From positions 1-64,000 of the forward strand of contig NZ_BAOS01000031.1 in the NCBI RefSeq assembly GCF_002443295.1: DNA of 64,000 nucleotides, in the 5' to 3' direction. The notes under the pieces were generated by a model. It saw only the letters and a program-made list of their open reading frames with translations. It made no database searches and had not been told where the DNA came from. Position numbers and translations under genes: made by a program. This document shows, in pieces, positions 35,340-62,966 of the stretch. How positions within the stretch are numbered: the stretch's first letter is position 1; every line of letters starts with the position of its first letter. This DNA is from Candidatus Scalindua japonica (GTDB lineage: Bacteria > Planctomycetota > Brocadiia > Brocadiales > Scalinduaceae).

Positions 35340-35846
35340 TTAAAATCCTGGCAGTGTTCCCAGATATTCCCAACCTGTACATTTCCAATTTTTTGCTTCA
35401 AACGTATTTGTAGCACATTGCTGGTAGATAACTTGTCCGGCTTCTTTGAAAAAACCTTTTCCATCATCACGAGGGTTGAAGAGAATTCTAACTGTTGCTT
35501 TACGAAAAGTATTACCGATAATACTGAATGTATACTGGGGATATACTATAGATGCCTGTGCATTATCAAGTTCTACATAGCCGTCCTCGTTCACGAAAGC
35601 ACTGGCGTTCTCATAATAGTAAACCCAGTTGCTATCCTTACCTATATGACGAAGATGTAGGCGGAATGTCTTTTTTTTTCTGTCAATATCTCCAACATAA
35701 AGCTGCCCACCATCAATAGGAGAAAGAGTGGCGGCCAGTTTGAACGAAGGGTCAGGTTCTTTCAATTCACTCGCAAATGCTTTTAATGTTATAAACAGTC
35801 CGACAAGAAGCACAGCACTTATTATTGATACCATTTTAATAATCAT
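35340..35846 (-). CDS. Secreted hypothetical protein
   Basis: This 168-residue protein has a signal peptide (1-25, cut near KAFASEL). The mature part is beta-rich with two cysteines near the end (QQCATNTF, KCTGW) that could form a disulfide. I do not recognise the family. It has no close neighbours on its strand other than pepF downstream. Confidence 0.65.
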   Translation of the reverse strand: MIIKMVSIISAVLLVGLFITLKAFASELKEPDPSFKLAATLSPIDGGQLYVGDIDRKKKTFRLHLRHIGKDSNWVYYYENASAFVNEDGYVELDNAQASIVYPQYTFSIIGNTFRKATVRILFNPRDDGKGFFKEAGQVIYQQCATNTFEAKNWKCTGWEYLGTLPGF

Positions 35847-36168: not shown

Positions 36169-39100
36169 CTATTTCTGACTTGTTACATTATCCCTCTTCG
36201 CCAACTCAAAAGGTCTGATTTTGAGTTCGATATCTGCTTCGTGAAGATGCTTCCAGATGCGGTTCCATACTTCATCACGTATCATATATCGTTTGTGATA
36301 ATCATCCGCATACCACCAGGGCCAATATTGCATCATACTTGCATTCTCAAAAACCTGCATACCTGCCAGCATGGTACCTTTTGCCATATCCTGCTTAATT
36401 AATGTACATTCTGATAAAGCCTGGTTTATCAACTGAATTACTTTCTGTGGATCATTGTCAGGTGCTACATAAACGCTAATGTAATCACCACCCGGAAGTG
36501 CTTTTGTATAATTCAGTATAGTTGACTCTGCTACCTGGCTGTTTGGTACGCTAAAATGATAATCGAATGGATTAATCAGTCTTGTTGTACGCCATGTCAT
36601 ATCTACTACCTTACCCGCCTGCATAGATCCAATTTGTATTGTATCACCAATAGTAAAAGGACGCTCAATGAAAATCATAATCCCACCCAATATATTGGCA
36701 AGAGTCTCTTTTGCCGCCAGGGCAATTGCTAAACCGCCTATTCCCAGACCCGCAAGAAAAGCGCCTACTTTAAAGCCGAGATTGCTCATTAACATAACAA
36801 TAGCAATAATCCAGATACTGATCTTTAAAAAGGTCTTTAAGAAGGAAAGTACAAATTTAGTTTGTGGTTTTTTTTCAATATCTGATGTCATGAACCGGGT
36901 GATCACGCGTTTGACTAACCATACCAGAAATATGGCAATCAGAACAATGCTTACCAGCTTTATTAAAATAAGGATTATCTCCTGTCTTCGTATTTTGTAA
37001 CGTTCCGGCCGTAATACGCCAATCTCACCTTGCAGAAATTGAAGCATGTCAATTGCAGTTTCGGGTTTTTCATCAGGTTCCAGTTTTGTCAACTCATCCG
37101 GAGAATGACCTGCAATATATTGAATTCGGCGTTGAATGCTGGAGGCTTTAGCATTCAACGCTCCCAGTCCTTCATGATATGTATCGATTTCTACCTCAAT
37201 GCCTGAAGGAGAAAGCTTCTGTTCGAAGAAACGGGTCCACTTATTTACTGCCATGATTTTCATGTGACGAAAGAAAAGAAGCGGAGCCAGCTCTTTAATC
37301 AGAGCGGCCTTATTCTTTTCCAAAACCGGCACCTGTGAATGTGCATGGTGCCCTGTTTTTGCTCTAGATGAATGGTGACCTGGCTCTGCTTTATGGGGCC
37401 CAAATTGTTCTCTGATCTTTATCCATTCCTCTTCTTCTTCATGTATTAATTGCACTGCCTGCTTATTAAGAATCAGTAACAGTTTTTGACTAATTGATTC
37501 TTCCTCTTCTGCGAGCTGTATCAAGTGTTCGGTATTTCCTTTCTGCTCCTTCAGATTCTCCCGTTTCATGCCCAGTTCCGCCAGTTCCACATAATAGGCA
37601 CGCAAAAGATCACTCAGTTCTTTCGTCTGCTCTGACGGCACAAAACTGAGAAAATATTCTATGATTTTATCTTCAGACTCCATATGGCGAAGAGCTGTTT
37701 GTTCGAGACTTTTCAATGCTGTCTCAGGAAGATCCTCCCTTTTTTGTTGAAAGTCCTGGTCCTGTTTCTGTAATTCCCGGAGTATATCAAGTCGTTTGCT
37801 GACCAGACTCCGCATTTCCTTTAACAAGGGCAGGGTTTCTCTGAGTGCTACATCCGGCTGGTGAAGTTCTTCTATCTGTCGCTTGACGTTCGTCTGATAG
37901 TTCAGCAATTCTGTTATCTCTGTTTCAGGTTGAATTATCAGATCGTGTGATAAAGCCTCAGTAATACCATCCGGAATTTCATTACTACTCAGTTGACCAC
38001 GACCCATACGCTTCTTTATTTCCTTGGCATTTGCATGATGCTTCATTGCCAGTTCCAGGGTTTCAGACAGCATGACTACATATTGTTCAACATGTTGATT
38101 CAGAGATTTAATAACATTCAGGAGTTTTGTGCGTTGTTTCTGCTGTTCTTCAATAATTCTGATTCTGGTTGATAGCAGGTTCTGGTATTGCACTGTCTGA
38201 GAAGTAAGGGTGTTATTATTCGAATATTTGATTAAGGGGTTTTTATTTACTTTATCAGCAGCAGTGGATGATTCTGATCTAAACGAAGCTCGTGTTAATT
38301 CCTCCGGTAAATTTAATCCGGCAAGTTTAAAGAGTTTTTTTAAAATATTTTGCTTTTCCTCCAGGAATTCATGTTGTATTAAACGCAATAATGGGTCTTT
38401 TAAATATCCAAGTTTTTGCTTTGCCTCTTCAACTCCCATTTGAGTTTTTTTAAATTTATCACGAAACTTTTGCAAAGTAATGCTATTTTCCCTAAGTTTT
38501 TCTGAACTCTTCTTAAAACTTTGAACAAGCTGTTGAATTGACATTTCTTTAAGCGTTGACTCCCATTGCTTGGCATGTAAAGCTGACTCCTGAATTTCTT
38601 TCAGACTTGCCAGGCTATCTGCCTCTTCTTTCCGGGCTGCCTCGTATTCTGCTATCTGTTCGTCAACCAGAACAAGCTGATCCCTGGCCTTCTGAACTGC
38701 AAGCAAAGCTTCTGATATATACTCTGAAACACTATTTCCTGCAGCTATGATAGTATCGGATTGGTTGCCTTCCGAAATTAAATCTGGTACACTTTCCCCC
38801 TCAACAACAGAATTTTCATGAATTTCAACAATAACCTGCATTTTGAAAAGATGTTCACTGAGAATTACAGCATCTCCTTTAAGAGATTCTCCATTCTCTA
38901 TCAAAGACTGCAGCTCCAACCGGAGTCTTCTCAGTTTTTTTGTTCTTGTGCCATGTTGTTGAGAGATTTTTTCTTTAGTAACAATGGTTTTATGATGATC
39001 TTTTTCTGCTGTTGTATGGTGATCTTTCTCACTTGCGTGATGATTTTTTTTAATAGAGTGGTGGTCTTTTTCAACATGCTTTTCATGATACCTTGTTTTT

Positions 39101-40089
39101 TTCGGCTTTGAAAGTTCTTCAAGTTCCTTCTGTACCCGGACTACATTCTCTTGACTGCTTCTGAATTTATTGAGCGAGAGATTAAAATTTTCAGTTAGCC
39201 ATACCCGTTCTTTCTGTAACTCTAAAATTTTTTCCTGTAGTCTCTCAAGTGTCTGTCTCAGATATTCCTGTTCCAGGTCCTGCCGGTGAAGTTCCTGGAA
39301 ATATATTTCCCTAGCAGAAGAGTGTTGGGCTTCTGCCTTGAAAATTTCTTTTCTGGTTTCTTCGATACGTGGAGCAATTTTACCAAGTCTCTGTTGAGTA
39401 GTCGCTGCCTCCTTCTTCAACTTGTTTTGTTGACTCTTAAATTTCTGCTTTTGTATCTCCATCCTTTGTGGGTTAAACAAGTCGGGGATCTCTTCAGATG
39501 CCAGCGTTCCATCATTGACTCGTAAATTGATTTCAAACAGAAATGGCATCATGCTTTCAAGTGATTCAACAAAAGCATTGGCGGCTGACTGAGCTGATTC
39601 TATATGAGTAATCTGCTGATTTAAAAGCATCTTTTCTGCGTGAATCAACTCAAGTCGGTTTTTATAAGCATCAAGCCTTTTCTTTGTATGACCCAGAGTA
39701 ATTCTGGCAACTTCTACAGGGAGGATGCCGTCTGATGGAATCTTAGGTTTTTCTTCAGGTATCTTTAAAGATCCGGTTTCCTCCATTCCATGATCAAGCA
39801 ATATTCCGCCTTTGTTTACCCTGCGTAACTGTGCCAGAAACCTGCCGGATGCTTCATTAATTATGGTCTGAGCCTGTTTAAGTAATTCACTATTACTTAG
39901 ATTATGGAGGGTCGGTGTTTGTAATTTTTTCTCTTTTTTATGTGCAACATCTGAAAACGCAGACAGAGAAGAAAAAGAGATGATGATTGTAATCGATAGA
40001 GCTACTAGACATCCTTTGAATATCGGTAGTTTTACCCCATAGAAATGTCTATGAAGGCAGGCATGTCGAGGAATAAATGAGTTGTTCAT
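36169..40089 (-). CDS. Very large MscS-family mechanosensitive channel with His-rich linkers
   Basis: This 1306-residue envelope protein has an N-terminal signal/anchor (about 22-48) and then roughly 1000 residues of mostly coiled coil, as in MscK/MscM-type channels. Near the C-terminus are three membrane helices (IILILIKLVSIVLIAIFLVW, then ISIWIIAIVMLMSNLGF, then GAFLAGLGIGGLAIALAAKE), followed by the MscS beta domain (PFTIGDTIQIGSMQAGKVVD, FSVPNSQVAESTILNY). It opens under membrane tension. Unusual His-rich repeats occur at about residues 325-350 (EKDHHSIKKNHHASEKDHHT) and again near 905-925 (GHHSSRAKTGHHAHS). Confidence 0.88.
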   Translation of the reverse strand: MNNSFIPRHACLHRHFYGVKLPIFKGCLVALSITIIISFSSLSAFSDVAHKKEKKLQTPTLHNLSNSELLKQAQTIINEASGRFLAQLRRVNKGGILLDHGMEETGSLKIPEEKPKIPSDGILPVEVARITLGHTKKRLDAYKNRLELIHAEKMLLNQQITHIESAQSAANAFVESLESMMPFLFEINLRVNDGTLASEEIPDLFNPQRMEIQKQKFKSQQNKLKKEAATTQQRLGKIAPRIEETRKEIFKAEAQHSSAREIYFQELHRQDLEQEYLRQTLERLQEKILELQKERVWLTENFNLSLNKFRSSQENVVRVQKELEELSKPKKTRYHEKHVEKDHHSIKKNHHASEKDHHTTAEKDHHKTIVTKEKISQQHGTRTKKLRRLRLELQSLIENGESLKGDAVILSEHLFKMQVIVEIHENSVVEGESVPDLISEGNQSDTIIAAGNSVSEYISEALLAVQKARDQLVLVDEQIAEYEAARKEEADSLASLKEIQESALHAKQWESTLKEMSIQQLVQSFKKSSEKLRENSITLQKFRDKFKKTQMGVEEAKQKLGYLKDPLLRLIQHEFLEEKQNILKKLFKLAGLNLPEELTRASFRSESSTAADKVNKNPLIKYSNNNTLTSQTVQYQNLLSTRIRIIEEQQKQRTKLLNVIKSLNQHVEQYVVMLSETLELAMKHHANAKEIKKRMGRGQLSSNEIPDGITEALSHDLIIQPETEITELLNYQTNVKRQIEELHQPDVALRETLPLLKEMRSLVSKRLDILRELQKQDQDFQQKREDLPETALKSLEQTALRHMESEDKIIEYFLSFVPSEQTKELSDLLRAYYVELAELGMKRENLKEQKGNTEHLIQLAEEEESISQKLLLILNKQAVQLIHEEEEEWIKIREQFGPHKAEPGHHSSRAKTGHHAHSQVPVLEKNKAALIKELAPLLFFRHMKIMAVNKWTRFFEQKLSPSGIEVEIDTYHEGLGALNAKASSIQRRIQYIAGHSPDELTKLEPDEKPETAIDMLQFLQGEIGVLRPERYKIRRQEIILILIKLVSIVLIAIFLVWLVKRVITRFMTSDIEKKPQTKFVLSFLKTFLKISIWIIAIVMLMSNLGFKVGAFLAGLGIGGLAIALAAKETLANILGGIMIFIERPFTIGDTIQIGSMQAGKVVDMTWRTTRLINPFDYHFSVPNSQVAESTILNYTKALPGGDYISVYVAPDNDPQKVIQLINQALSECTLIKQDMAKGTMLAGMQVFENASMMQYWPWWYADDYHKRYMIRDEVWNRIWKHLHEADIELKIRPFELAKRDNVTSQK

Positions 40090-40104: not shown

Positions 40105-43100
40105 TTATCGGCAGGGTATGAATCGTACCATGGTCTTCTTGTCTCTGATGACTTCTCCAAGAAGATCAATAGTGCGATCGATTTCTTCCATCGTATTACC
40201 AAGTCCAAGCGAAAAACGCAGAGCACAATGCGCCTCTTCTTCGGAAAGTCCCATTGCCAGTAATGCGTGTGAAGGCTTCGGTGAACCGGCCCGGCATGCC
40301 GACCCGGAAGAGAGAGAAACACCTTTCTGGTCCAGGGCGAGAACTACCGACTCTCCACGTATTCCGGGAAAAGTCATATTCAATGTGTTTGGCAACAGTG
40401 CCTCCGGATTTCCGTTCAACTTCGCATCTTTCATTAATTCGCGTATCCCTTTTTCCAGTTTGTCACGCATCCTTTTGATCCTGACCATTTCATGGATTCG
40501 TTGAACCGCCAGCTCTGCTGCCTTGCCCAGCCCGACAATCCCTAATACATTTTCTGTACCCGCACGCATTCCATTCTCCTGCTTCCCACCACTCACCAGT
40601 GGCTCCATTACAACATCTTTTCGAATATAAAGAGCCCCAATACCTTTCGGGCCATATATTTTATGCCCAGACATTGTGAGCAAATCCACACCGAGGGCTT
40701 CTACATCTATTGGAATTTTTCCAATCGCCTGTACACAATCAGTATGAAACAGAATGTTCCGTTCTTTCGCTATCGTGACCAGATCTGCTATCGGATTAAT
40801 TGAACCGGTCTCGTTGTTTGCCATCATCACACTCACCAGGCATGTTTTATCTGTAATTGCAGATTTCAACTCTTCCTGGTTAATCTTCTTTGTTTTATCA
40901 ATGTTGAGGTATGTTACGGTAAACCCGTGCCTTTCAAGCCACTGACATGTATCAATAACAGAAGGATGTTCTATGGAAGTGGTTATAATATGGTTCCTTG
41001 TGTTCCAGTTTGCGAAAGCAACTCCTTTTATAGCGAGATTGTTGGCCTCGGAACCGCTACCGGTAAAGGTTATCCGCCTTGCAGTACAATTGAGTAACTG
41101 GGCAACACTTCGCCTCGCCGCCTCAACAGCAAACCTCGCTTCCTTTCCTTCGGTATAGATACTGGATGGATTTCCATGACCATTTTCAGCAAACTGGAGC
41201 ATGATCTTCCTGACTTCCGGGTCTAAAGGAGTTGTGGCATTGTGATCAAGATAAATACGCTTCTCAATATGCTGAGACTCTGAGTCTGACTCTATCATCC
41301 CGGTAGTATCATTGTATTCACCTGAATCTACCGCAAGTGCCTTGTCTCTCTCTGTTACTTTAACTACTTCACACAAGAGAGTTTTATATACAGGAAAGCC
41401 AGATATTGGGTCATACCGCTGGAGATCAGTCAAATCATTTACATTGCAATTCTGCCACTTCTCCGGCCCAACGGGTCCGCCGCCACCCATATTGGCATCA
41501 ATGGCACCCTGAACAATATCATCGGTGACCAGTGCACACATGGTAACCTTACCACGCTTAGTCATAATGTCCACAAGGTCTCCGCTTTTGATACTACGAG
41601 CTTCCGCATCCAGGGTATTGATTGTTACCGTTGGCTCAGGCCTCTCTTTCAGAAGCCCTGAGACGCCATGATGCTGTGAACGGAAATCTGTAGTTACACG
41701 TGATCCCGAATTGAATATCAGGGGAAATTCCTCTGCAAGATCTGGCTGAGAGTGAGGTCCTTCACCAGGTTCTGTATAGACTGGTAGAGGGTCATACCCA
41801 TGCTCTTCAAGTATTGTGGAAGCTATTTCAAACTTTCCTGTCGGAGTTTCGAACCCGGGCTTACCATCAGTACGCAGTAATCCCTTCTCCCATTTCTTGT
41901 ACTGCGTTAAGACTGATGGCACCTGTACTGTTCCATTTGAACCCCGAACATCTTCAAGGGAAAAACCGGACCCTTTTAGCACGTGTCGAAGGAGTTCTTC
42001 CTCATCTGCCGGATAAAGATGCCCGTAGCCAAGACGTTCAGCAAGTTCTGTCAAAATAAAGAAATCATTCCGCGCCTCACCTACCGGCTCAGCAATTTTC
42101 TCTCTGATTCGAAAGATCGGTCCATACGTCATATATGATTCAATTTCATACATGGTAGTTGCGGGAAGGACTATATCTGCATACGCTGCATCTGCTGTCA
42201 ATTGACGATCAATACTTACAAGAAAATCAAGATTATTCAATGTCTTGCGCCAGATAGCCGGTTGAGGCCAGGAAGTAATAATTGATCCTCCAAGTATGAT
42301 AAGAGAACGAATAGGATAGGGTTTTCCTTCCAGGACAGACTCCGGTAATGCAATTGCATGGGATTCCCCCCGATATTGACTGTAAACAGGAAAGCGATCT
42401 CTGCCCAGTGCTTTTCGTACATCAGGATTGGGAATATGACCTTCACGGTTTAAAGGAAAATTGTTTTCTTTCATCGTAAAACAACGCCCTCCCGGCACAT
42501 CAAGCTGTCCCCCAAGTGCCCAGAGGACCATTGTCGCTCGTATTGCCTGCACACCGCTGTCACTATACTCAAGCCCGCTGTACATAACCGGAGATGCACC
42601 ATTTACTTCTGCAATTCTTCTGGCAAGAGACCTGATTGTGTCAGCAGGAACCCCCGTAATGTTTTCAACAGCATCCGGCCTGAAGTGTTGTACATATCTT
42701 GCAAGGTCATCGAACCCAACTGACCAGTTTTTTACAAAGTCCTCGTCATAGAGTTCTTCTTCTATAAGAATATTGCACATACCGAGAGCCAGGGCGCCAT
42801 CAGTACCAGGACGTATTGGAATCCACTCTGCATCAGTAAGCTTTGCCGTCATGGTTTTCCGCGGATCTATAACAACAACCTGTGCTCCTTGTTTTTGTGC
42901 ACTGATAATCCTGTTAAGATCCAGCGGTGGACAATCGGTTGCAGGATTTGTCCCCCATACCACTATCATCTGGGCATTCTCGATATCGGAAAACATATTA
43001 ATCAACATCCCCCCCATAGTGATATGAGGCGCAATCATAGCAAACGAGACGTAGCAGAGAGCACCTACTCCCAGAGTATTTGGAGAACCAAATGGAAACA

Positions 43101-43512
43101 AAACACTTGACGCAGAAGATACGGCCACATCCTTTGGCTGAAACACATCACACATGGAAAGCTCAAAGCTTCCCCTCCCTGTGTATATAGCAGTAGCCTC
43201 CGGGCCCGACTCCTCCTTAATAGTATTTAAGTTTTCAACGATAATTTCATAGGCACTGTCCCAGGAAATTCTCTCAAACTCATAGGTACCTTTTGGGCCC
43301 TTTCTCCTCAGCGGATAGCGAAGCCGGTCTTTGGAATATACAATTTCAGAAGAGTGTTCACCGAGTTTGCAAATCATTCCTAGATGAGAGCTTTCATCAG
43401 GTCTTACCTCCGCAATCCTTCCCTCCTTATCATAGCTGACGGTAACCCAGCACCCAGCAGGACAAATACCGCAGATTGCATGTTTTTCATTACTACTGTT
43501 CTTTGATCCCAT
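40105..43512 (-). CDS. Molybdopterin oxidoreductase fused to cysteine desulfurase
   Basis: This is a single 1135-residue frame. Residues 1-700 are a DMSO-reductase-family enzyme: [4Fe-4S] ligands Cys14, 17, 21 and 48, a probable Mo-ligand Cys153 (ALCYVSF), and two pterin-binding halves. Residues 753-1135 are a NifS/IscS-type cysteine desulfurase: YLDHNATTP, PLP Lys951 (SGHKIYGPKG) and catalytic Cys1073 (SSGSACRAG). The join is at about 41256, after a linker with acidic residues. Free desulfurases (IscS) supply the sulfur that FdhD transfers to the Mo cofactor of formate dehydrogenases, so in-cis sulfuration is a plausible role (inference). No signal peptide. Confidence 0.92.
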   Translation of the reverse strand: MGSKNSSNEKHAICGICPAGCWVTVSYDKEGRIAEVRPDESSHLGMICKLGEHSSEIVYSKDRLRYPLRRKGPKGTYEFERISWDSAYEIIVENLNTIKEESGPEATAIYTGRGSFELSMCDVFQPKDVAVSSASSVLFPFGSPNTLGVGALCYVSFAMIAPHITMGGMLINMFSDIENAQMIVVWGTNPATDCPPLDLNRIISAQKQGAQVVVIDPRKTMTAKLTDAEWIPIRPGTDGALALGMCNILIEEELYDEDFVKNWSVGFDDLARYVQHFRPDAVENITGVPADTIRSLARRIAEVNGASPVMYSGLEYSDSGVQAIRATMVLWALGGQLDVPGGRCFTMKENNFPLNREGHIPNPDVRKALGRDRFPVYSQYRGESHAIALPESVLEGKPYPIRSLIILGGSIITSWPQPAIWRKTLNNLDFLVSIDRQLTADAAYADIVLPATTMYEIESYMTYGPIFRIREKIAEPVGEARNDFFILTELAERLGYGHLYPADEEELLRHVLKGSGFSLEDVRGSNGTVQVPSVLTQYKKWEKGLLRTDGKPGFETPTGKFEIASTILEEHGYDPLPVYTEPGEGPHSQPDLAEEFPLIFNSGSRVTTDFRSQHHGVSGLLKERPEPTVTINTLDAEARSIKSGDLVDIMTKRGKVTMCALVTDDIVQGAIDANMGGGGPVGPEKWQNCNVNDLTDLQRYDPISGFPVYKTLLCEVVKVTERDKALAVDSGEYNDTTGMIESDSESQHIEKRIYLDHNATTPLDPEVRKIMLQFAENGHGNPSSIYTEGKEARFAVEAARRSVAQLLNCTARRITFTGSGSEANNLAIKGVAFANWNTRNHIITTSIEHPSVIDTCQWLERHGFTVTYLNIDKTKKINQEELKSAITDKTCLVSVMMANNETGSINPIADLVTIAKERNILFHTDCVQAIGKIPIDVEALGVDLLTMSGHKIYGPKGIGALYIRKDVVMEPLVSGGKQENGMRAGTENVLGIVGLGKAAELAVQRIHEMVRIKRMRDKLEKGIRELMKDAKLNGNPEALLPNTLNMTFPGIRGESVVLALDQKGVSLSSGSACRAGSPKPSHALLAMGLSEEEAHCALRFSLGLGNTMEEIDRTIDLLGEVIRDKKTMVRFIPCR

Positions 43513-43579: not shown

Positions 43580-44581
43580 TTAATCAGCAGCTGGTGCGAA
43601 AAGGTTCAGGCTGAAAAGTTGTTCAGTATCAAACCATTGTTGTTCCACATAAAGACCTGTCTCTTCTGCCAGAGCATTAATATCGTCTGGAGAATACTTG
43701 AATGAGTGTTCCGTGTGAATAGTTTCATCAGCCATAAATGAAACCTCTAAATCAAGTTCACTGATAAAAACCTTCTGATCTATATGACTGATCAGGTACA
43801 TCTCAATTCGTCCAATTTCTTCATTATAAATTGCCTTGTGAAAAAATTTATCTACGTCAAAATTGCCCCCCAGTTCTCTATTTACATGTGTAAGGAGGTT
43901 TAAGTTGAACTCTGCAGTAACACCCTGTGTATCATTGTAGGCATTTTCCAAAATAGTTTTCTCTTTTTTCAAATCAATACCTACCAGAAACCTGTCATTG
44001 GGAAGCATTATTTTCTGTAGATGTCGTAAAAAATCAGTTACCTCAGATCTATTAAAATTGCCTATACTTGATCCTAACCATGTAATCAGGTTCTGTTGCT
44101 CTTTCAGGATGTTCAGGTGATCAATTCCTTCATTATACCTGGCAGCAATGGCGTTTATTACCAGATCCGGATATGCTTCGAGCAGGGAATAAGCGCTCTC
44201 CTCAAGTATCTTATGGGAGACATCAATAGGTGTATAATGAGCAAGGCGCTGACGTTCAAGAAACGCCTCTATCAGTATCCTTGTTTTTGTAGAACTACCA
44301 CTACCTAATTCGACGAGGACTGTTTCTCCCGTAAATAGGGAAACAATATCATCTGCGTTTGCTTCAAGGATATCTGTTTCCGTACGTGTCAGGTAATATT
44401 CCGGAAGTCCACAGATTTTCTCAAATAACTGTGATCCGGCATGATCATAGAAATAGACAAAGGGGAGGTGCTTTGATTCAGAAGTAAGACCGCTTTTAAC
44501 ATCTCTGGAGAAGTTGTTTATGAAATTCTTCCTATCGATTGTTACTAGTGAAAATCGTCCTTCAATTCCTGAAATTGTCAC
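43580..44581 (-). CDS. EgtD-like histidine N-methyltransferase
   Basis: This 333-residue S-adenosylmethionine enzyme belongs to the EgtD family, which trimethylates histidine as the first step to ergothioneine. Seen are the N-terminal KHLPFVYFYDHAGSQLFEKI and LPEYYLTRTETDIL, then VLVELGSGSSTKT as the cofactor loop. The partner EgtB is not nearby. The only SUMF1-type gene (62064) is far away and lacks EgtB features that I can see. It starts 67 bases after the fusion gene, on the same strand order, so an operon with it is possible. Confidence 0.85.
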   Translation of the reverse strand: MTISGIEGRFSLVTIDRKNFINNFSRDVKSGLTSESKHLPFVYFYDHAGSQLFEKICGLPEYYLTRTETDILEANADDIVSLFTGETVLVELGSGSSTKTRILIEAFLERQRLAHYTPIDVSHKILEESAYSLLEAYPDLVINAIAARYNEGIDHLNILKEQQNLITWLGSSIGNFNRSEVTDFLRHLQKIMLPNDRFLVGIDLKKEKTILENAYNDTQGVTAEFNLNLLTHVNRELGGNFDVDKFFHKAIYNEEIGRIEMYLISHIDQKVFISELDLEVSFMADETIHTEHSFKYSPDDINALAEETGLYVEQQWFDTEQLFSLNLFAPAAD

Positions 44582-44799: not shown

Positions 44800-45913
44800 A
44801 GTGGTATCAAGGAGATTGAAACCATAGCAGCATGGAGAGAATCAGAGAGATTGGAGGCGGAAGAGTATAATAAAAAAAAGAGATTTTAGATATAAATGAG
44901 AAAATAATGGAAAACGATATCGCTGGTGATCCAATGAATGAAAAAAGATGGAGCAAAAAGACAGCCTATGCACTTAAAGATGATTTAACGAACACCTATT
45001 TTGAAGGGAGCAAGAGAGGTAGTAAAGTAGCTGGGTATGGCAAATCAAAAGAGAAGCGCAATGATTGTCCAATGGTTACACTATCGCTTACAATAGATGA
45101 AGAGGGATTTCCTAAGCAGAGCAAAGTGTGGAAAGGCAATGTGTCAGAGCCGGATACGCTTGAGGGTATTTTGTTGGGGTTAAAAGAAGAAGAAAGCTTG
45201 TTTTCGAGTCAGAGAACGATTGTTATGGATGCAGGGATTGCTACGGAAGATAATATTGCATTGATTAAAAAGAACGGCTTTAAATATATAGCAGTCTCAC
45301 GCAAGAGAACGTATGATGATGCCCTCTGGTCTGGAGTGCAAGAGGAGAAGGTCGCATTATCGGAGGGGAAAACAATATTGAGTATGAAATTAGCCCGAAC
45401 AGAAGAAGAGGTGTTTCTTTTATGCCACTCTGAAGCAAAAGAGGCCAAAGAGAGTGCAATTCTTTTCCGTCGTGAGCAGAAATTTGAACAAGAGTTAACA
45501 GCGATACAAGAGGGATTAAAGAAGAAAAGGACGCTCAAGAAAAAGGTAGTTTTAGAAACATGAAAGGCAATCTGGGTTTGTGTCCAAACTTTCATCATGA
45601 CGATATCCCAACTATTGCTCATGTACATATCACGGTATTGGCTTATCATATGCTTGCAGGGATATTAAAAAAGTTACGAACAGCGGATGTGCATTATAAT
45701 TGGAATACGATTCGTAATATTCTTGCAACACATGTAAGGGTAACAACCACTATGAACACAGAGGATGGACACGTTATTGACGTCAGAACATGCATAACAT
45801 CCACAGAAAAGCAATATATGATTTACAATAAGCTACATATTAAACATACTTCTTTGGAGAGAAAACATATGAAATCATCGGTTAAGACCCAAAGATGTAG
45901 TGCCGAAAATTGA
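44800..45913 (+). pseudogene. Remnant of an IS1634-family transposase
   Basis: The frame at 44907-45563 holds the DDE-type core (KDDLTNTYFEGSKRGSKVAG, TIVMDAGIATEDNIALIKKN). It then breaks, and the last part continues in another frame at 45560-45913 (NFHHDDIPTIAHVHITVLAY), the C-terminal region of the same family. The N-terminal third is missing or scrambled (44800-44906). An internal deletion between the halves is evident from the missing residues. No clear terminal repeats were found. The element is inactive. Confidence 0.8.
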
Positions 45914-61738: not shown

Positions 61739-62063
61739 GATTCCTGTTTCCTTCTTTTTCTTTGACTGAAAACCTGAATTGTCAGTTCAGTCGGGTAGCC
61801 GCAACCTTCAGGTTGCGTTGTTTAAGTAATTTTTCATCTATACAATGTTTCAGGCAAACGAAGGCTAACTTCCTGTACCTGTTCGGGCGGGAAGTGTGCG
61901 ATTACAATAAGATTTAATAAGGAAACTCAACACTTTTAAGAATATCTTTTGACATATCGTAAATCAAGTAAAAGATCCGTAATAAAAATTACTTATGAAC
62001 ACTTTCCGTGTTTACTAGAAAGACTATTTGACATAAAAACATTCTGTGATAAGCTTTAGTACT
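61739..62063. other. Spacer with REP palindromes and possible promoter
   Basis: CGCAACCTTCAGGTTGCG (61800-61817) is a perfect palindrome of a type common in bacterial intergenic repeats. CCTGTACCTGTTCGGGCGGG at about 61874-61893 matches the 48236 repeat. TTGACA at 62028-62033 is a possible -35 box for the SUMF1 gene, but the -10 is weak. Confidence 0.45.
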
Positions 62064-62966
62064 ATGATAACAAAACATAATGAAAAGCAGGATATTCCCG
62101 AAGAGATGGTACTGGTCCCAGAAGGTCTGTTTTTAATGGGAAGCACGGAGGATGATATTAAAAAATTGTTAGAACTTGATCGCAATGTTGAGGCGAGCAG
62201 GTTTGATGTAGAGATCCCGCAGAGAGAGGTCTATATTGGCCCTTATCTGATTGATAAGTGTCCGGTTACCAATGCGGAATATAAGAGGTTTATAGAATCG
62301 GGTGGTTATAAGAATAGAGCTTTCTGGTCGAAGGCAGGATGGGATTATGTTTTAAAAATAAAACCTCTGGACGGTGACAGTGTGAACAGCGCCATGGATG
62401 GTGAAGATGATTGTCCGGTGGTAAATATTTCATGGTATGAGGCAGAAGCCTTTGCAGAATATATGGGAAAAAGACTCCCTACTGAAGCAGAATGGGAAAA
62501 AGCTGCTCGTGGTACGGATGGCAGGTTATATCCTTGGGGAAATGAATTTGATAAAACAAAACTGAATTGCTCCGAATCCGGAATTGAAAGCACAACCCCT
62601 GTTGTAAAATACTTACAAGGCAGAAGTGAATATGGATGCTTCGATATGGCGGGAAACGTCTGGGAGTGGACAGCAGACTGGTTTGACAGTCAGTATTACC
62701 GTTCTGCCCCAGACAGAGATCCGCAGGGGCCTGATAAAGCTGAGGATAAGCCGTTTTTCGGGAGACCGGAAGATGTGGGTACTTCTATTTACGAATTGGA
62801 GCCCTCAAAGGCAGGTAACAGCTCACTGAGCGATTGTAAGGTGTTACGTGGTGGTTCATGGAACGGTGGAGGTGTTATTCATATCCGTTGCGCAAATCGT
62901 GATTACGATGAACCTGATTACAGAAATGATACTATTGGTTTCAGATGTGCCAGATCTTTAATGTAA
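62064..62966 (+). CDS. SUMF1/formylglycine-generating-enzyme-fold protein
   Basis: This is a 300-residue protein from the ATG at 62064; a GTG at 62046 is possible. It shows the complete family pattern: EEMVLVPEGLFLMGSTEDD, YLIDKCPVTNAEYKRFIESG, PVVNISWYEAEAFAEYMGKR, LPTEAEWEKAARG, MAGNVWEWTADWF, LRGGSWNGGG and IGFRCARS. The two catalytic cysteines of true copper-dependent formylglycine enzymes are not seen at the expected place after RGGSW. An oxidase role is therefore unlikely, and a structural or other function is more probable. Confidence 0.88.
   Translation: MITKHNEKQDIPEEMVLVPEGLFLMGSTEDDIKKLLELDRNVEASRFDVEIPQREVYIGPYLIDKCPVTNAEYKRFIESGGYKNRAFWSKAGWDYVLKIKPLDGDSVNSAMDGEDDCPVVNISWYEAEAFAEYMGKRLPTEAEWEKAARGTDGRLYPWGNEFDKTKLNCSESGIESTTPVVKYLQGRSEYGCFDMAGNVWEWTADWFDSQYYRSAPDRDPQGPDKAEDKPFFGRPEDVGTSIYELEPSKAGNSSLSDCKVLRGGSWNGGGVIHIRCANRDYDEPDYRNDTIGFRCARSLM

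Follow-up and report, generated by a model that had tools for sequence, protein, structure and literature searches.

The fused gene described here, located on the minus strand of the analysed window (the whole stretch of 64,000 nucleotides from Candidatus Scalindua japonica), in all likelihood encodes a metallopterin-dependent ergothioneine synthase (MES) that, together with egtD, forms a two-gene ergothioneine cassette in Candidatus Scalindua; judging from sequence and gene context, we give this reading a probability of about 0.94. MES was described in Caldithrix abyssi (Beliaeva & Seebeck 2022, PMC9516567). That is, the fusion would be an ortholog of an enzyme already published in 2022, of which only the marine anammox host may be new, and a striking-looking fusion would thus be resolved as a published enzyme with a named substrate.

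Structure of the fused gene

The fusion of a metallopterin enzyme with a cysteine desulfurase at this locus is real (Table 1). It occupies a single uninterrupted open frame of 1,135 codons, the strand of which the preliminary description of this DNA had left unstated; the plus strand of the same interval contains many stops and is not open. Pfam and NCBIfam models place a molybdopterin oxidoreductase module at residues 10-711 and a NifS/IscS-type cysteine desulfurase at residues 753-1129, in agreement with the description's claim that one frame joins a molybdopterin enzyme to a complete desulfurase. In the homologue alignment, the linker (about residues 719-750) is the least conserved region (7-74% identity vs. 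58-93% for both domains), and a variable linker between two conserved domains is the pattern expected of a genuine fused enzyme. Further, single-frame, full-length homologues of 1129-1136 aa run across the same linker in independent genomes of several phyla; hence, a frame error between the halves, which had been raised as a way in which the fusion could prove artefactual, is ruled out in practice. As a separate observation, one single-contig Brocadiales genome (G029:C1:3234543-3237934) carries MES in two overlapping frames, split around residues 460-465, due either to a frameshift or to a sequencing error.

Table 1. Positions in the window of the predicted MES gene, its modules and the adjacent egtD.
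Feature	Positions	Strand	Basis
Predicted MES ortholog, 1135 aa: N-terminal metallopterin module and C-terminal cysteine desulfurase	40105..43512	minus	
Metallopterin (bis-MGD) module, residues 1-718	41359..43512	minus	Pfam matches, invariant residues
Variable interdomain linker, residues 719-750	41263..41358	minus	identity 7-74%
Cysteine desulfurase module, residues 751-1135	40108..41262	minus	PF00266, TIGR03402, residue conservation
egtD, L-histidine N-alpha-methyltransferase, 333 aa, GTG start	43580..44581	minus	TIGR03438, PF10017

The N-terminal module is a member of the DMSO-reductase family, with matches to Pfam Molybdopterin (residues 63-493, E=1.8e-44), Molydop_binding (residues 600-711, E=2.3e-16) and, slightly under the cut-off of 22.7, Molybdop_Fe4S4 (residues 10-60, 20.2 bits). 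The 4Fe-4S ligands that the preliminary description had reported are present as C14, C17, C21 and C48, numbered identically to those of the C. abyssi enzyme (CaMES) and invariant in 16 sequences, and C153, the predicted Mo/W ligand, is invariant in the homologue alignment as well (invariance of catalytic residues was scored over 15-16 homologues, and the roles of residues in this module were taken from the C. abyssi ortholog, PMC9516567). Among molybdopterin enzymes of solved structure, acetylene hydratase (2E7Z, E=3e-73) is nearest to this module, and the same holds for CaMES (PMC9516567). A metallopterin protein encoded on a Dehalococcoidales contig (L026, 6001-8058) is 34% identical to MES residues 1-721, has no desulfurase module and may be a free-standing relative.

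The C-terminal module matches Pfam Aminotran_5 (PF00266; residues 753-1113, E=4.1e-84) and the NifS model TIGR03402 (487 bits, under the equivalog cut-off of 531). The PLP lysine (K951) and the persulfide cysteine (C1073) lie exactly where they had previously been placed; the module also has C1096 and, near the C-terminus, the relay cysteine C1134 (roles are from the C. abyssi ortholog; C1134 is unread in both Tectomicrobia copies, L015 and L016, the contigs of which end there). In a phylogenetic tree, the MES desulfurase modules fall together with full support, and the free-standing desulfurases that were sampled, five of them from the Scalindua genome under study, lie outside this group.

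Correspondence with the Caldithrix abyssi enzyme

MES was discovered as a protein encoded alongside histidine methyltransferases where genomes had neither EgtB nor EanB, and expression of four MES homologues in E. coli gave ergothioneine (PMC9516567). The desulfurase module converts cysteine to alanine, and each of the CaMES substitutions K952A, C1074S, C1135S and C153S abolished ergothioneine production (PMC9516567). All residues tested or named in that study map one to one onto the Scalindua protein; specifically, K952, C1074, C1097 and C1135 of CaMES correspond to K951, C1073, C1096 and C1134 here, the numbering being shifted by one residue beyond the linker. The comparison was made with a MAG copy labelled Caldithrix abyssi HyVt-577 (L008), which is 72% identical to the Scalindua protein and carries the published CaMES numbering exactly (952, 1074, 1097, 1135), and with the residue numbers given in PMC9516567.

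Recurrence of the fusion and its pairing with egtD

Copies of the fusion with 60-92% identity occur in Scalindua and other Brocadiales as well as in Nitrospirota, Calditrichota, Tectomicrobia and Methanomicrobiales; the closest (91-92% identical) are those of Candidatus Scalindua MAGs (Brocadiales). Full-length copies, in which the catalytic residues are invariant while the linker varies, were found in Scalindua and in all four of the groups outside the Brocadiales; recurrence in related genomes, which had been proposed as a check, was thus observed across several phyla.

The gene located 67 bp upstream of the fusion, on the same strand, is egtD, the product of which scores 369 bits against TIGR03438 (curated cut-off 290.9), with E=8e-110 against PF10017 and E=1e-63 against the M. 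smegmatis EgtD structures. The equivalents of M. smegmatis Y39, Y56, N166, Y206, M252, E282 and S284, which we take to be the histidine-pocket residues, are identical in the EgtD alignment, and this is the sole strong egtD in the genome. Across the Brocadiales, MES was detected in 16 of 62 genomes; 14 of these 16 carry a strong egtD, always within ~0.8 kb and on the same strand, vs. only three of the 46 MES-less genomes with a strong egtD anywhere (Fisher p=2.5e-9, a value that is not corrected for the relatedness of the genomes). One of the two MES-bearing genomes without a detected strong egtD has only a MES fragment. The order of the two genes differs among lineages: egtD lies upstream of MES in Scalindua but downstream of it in Nitrospirota, Methanomicrobiales and some Brocadiales. 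The pair is kept nonetheless, and with such differences in order the pairing is poorly explained by simple inheritance of a single neighbourhood. Three genomes of the order (G001, G002 and G008) have a strong egtD and no MES match, and may use another enzyme to sulfurate trimethylhistidine (TMH).

Within the Scalindua genome, no match to EgtB over the cut-off was found (only FGE-domain matches below it). By their length and domains, none of the rhodanese frames (135-570 aa) is an EanB-like multi-rhodanese protein, and the fusion is thus the one remaining candidate TMH sulfurator. The best EgtB match of the genome, a sulfatase-modifying-factor (FGE) domain protein at 62046-62966 (+), was rejected as an EgtB candidate (FGE domain only, 132 bits vs. 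a cut-off of 360); there are at least ten FGE-like places in the genome.

As for the surrounding genes, a weak DDE transposase match (PF01609) at 44907-45913 (+), between egtD and pheT, suggests insertion-sequence remnants bordering the egtD-MES cassette. An MscS-family mechanosensitive channel of 1306 aa (36169-40089, minus strand), the N-terminal region of which is very long, begins 15 bp downstream of MES and was rejected as part of the pathway, there being no match to it in any MES locus. This gene looks inserted between MES and the gene at 35340-35846, the homologue of which comes straight after MES in the loci L002 and L004.

Proposed mechanism and alternative functions

According to the mechanism that we propose, EgtD would trimethylate histidine to TMH, while the PLP-dependent desulfurase (K951) would move sulfur from L-cysteine onto C1073. 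The persulfide would be relayed via C1134, at the tail of the protein, to the Mo/W-bis-MGD centre held by C153, where the metal sulfido ligand would be re-formed in each cycle, and the imidazole C2 of TMH would accept the metal-bound sulfur to give ergothioneine without oxygen. The order of the persulfide relay and the Mo=S electrophile are proposals for the C. abyssi enzyme (PMC9516567), and we infer from orthology that the Scalindua protein works in the same way. Two differently inactivated CaMES chains fail to complement each other, showing that the sulfur transfer is intramolecular (PMC9516567), and the desulfurase of the Scalindua fusion very probably likewise hands its sulfur to the Mo/W centre in cis. 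The in-cis delivery envisaged by the preliminary description is therefore retained in part, i.e., as the intramolecular transfer shown for the C. abyssi ortholog, but not as maturation of a formate dehydrogenase cofactor, which is unsupported. The genome also encodes a MobA-like protein, which scores below the curated cut-off.

Alternatively, the fusion might be a related sulfurtransferase that performs the same chemistry on a heterocycle other than TMH, given that the metallopterin superfamily is diverse and that the TMH specificity of the Scalindua enzyme is a prediction. We consider this very improbable, however, since the histidine-pocket residues of the adjacent egtD are conserved and the protein has all catalytic residues and is 72% identical to the copy in the MAG labelled C. 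abyssi.

Less probable still, to the point of being almost negligible, is the earlier main reading, namely a formate dehydrogenase or other oxidoreductase in which the attached desulfurase would sulfurate the Mo cofactor in cis once only, during maturation: Mo cofactors elsewhere do get sulfurated by desulfurases, and Fdh-alpha (TIGR01591) is the best-scoring molybdopterin NCBIfam model, but its 296.7 bits are well under the cut-off of 666.25, the nearest solved enzyme is acetylene hydratase and the conserved neighbour is egtD. The fdhD gene that had been suggested as a possible neighbour was not found anywhere in the genome (no PF02634 match in an assembly 96.8% complete, with the same search positive in 8 of 14 control genomes). 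Further, CaMES K952A retains the exchange of sulfur between ergothioneine and TMH (PMC9516567), so that in CaMES the desulfurase is required for turnover and not for activation of the metal site. A passing alternative in the preliminary description, that the released sulfur is used as substrate, came closest to MES, in which each turnover consumes sulfur. A molybdopterin oxidoreductase relative encoded elsewhere in the genome (G000:C28:278727-280682) shares 29% identity with the N-terminal module and has one in-frame TGA that was read through; it is possibly a selenocysteine formate dehydrogenase, in a genome that yielded no fdhD.

Implications and relation to known systems

Anammox bacteria are anaerobes, and the nearest copies of the fusion belong to Candidatus Scalindua, an anammox bacterium; the host is thus anaerobic, as for MES. 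No paper in the searched literature contains 'ergothioneine' together with 'anammox' or 'Scalindua' (the list of 55 genomes in the supplement of PMC9516567 lay outside the search), and the occurrence of MES in marine anammox bacteria appears to be previously unremarked in that literature. Our reading would extend oxygen-independent ergothioneine synthesis to anammox bacteria, and the role of ergothioneine without oxygen could then be tested in bacteria that deal with hydrazine and nitric oxide. We see about even odds that ergothioneine is made anaerobically in Scalindua and several further Brocadiales, via a patchily distributed egtD-MES cassette, and serves an undescribed oxygen-independent purpose (e.g., nitrogen-oxide or sulfide stress).

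With MES of C. abyssi, the Scalindua protein shares the domain order, the Fe-S cysteines, Cys153, the PLP lysine, the persulfide and relay cysteines, a co-encoded EgtD-type methyltransferase and almost its length (1135 vs. 1136 aa), whereas it differs in its host, a marine anammox member of the Planctomycetota, and in sequence (~72% identical to L008, from the MAG labelled C. abyssi). Acetylene hydratase (2E7Z), the nearest solved relative of the metallopterin module, likewise has a Cys metal ligand but hydrates acetylene and is without a desulfurase module. EgtB, the sulfoxide synthase, also places sulfur onto TMH after EgtD, yet needs oxygen and iron, while EanB, the rhodanese-like ergothioneine synthase of Chlorobium, shares the oxygen-independent sulfuration of TMH but has an unrelated fold and a polysulfide donor. 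Finally, the maturation of formate dehydrogenase by FdhD and IscS, and cofactor sulfuration by XdhC and Aba3, have in common with MES that desulfurase-derived sulfur is placed onto Mo; in these systems, however, this is a one-time maturation of the cofactor before its insertion, whereas in MES it is a step of turnover within the enzyme's own polypeptide.
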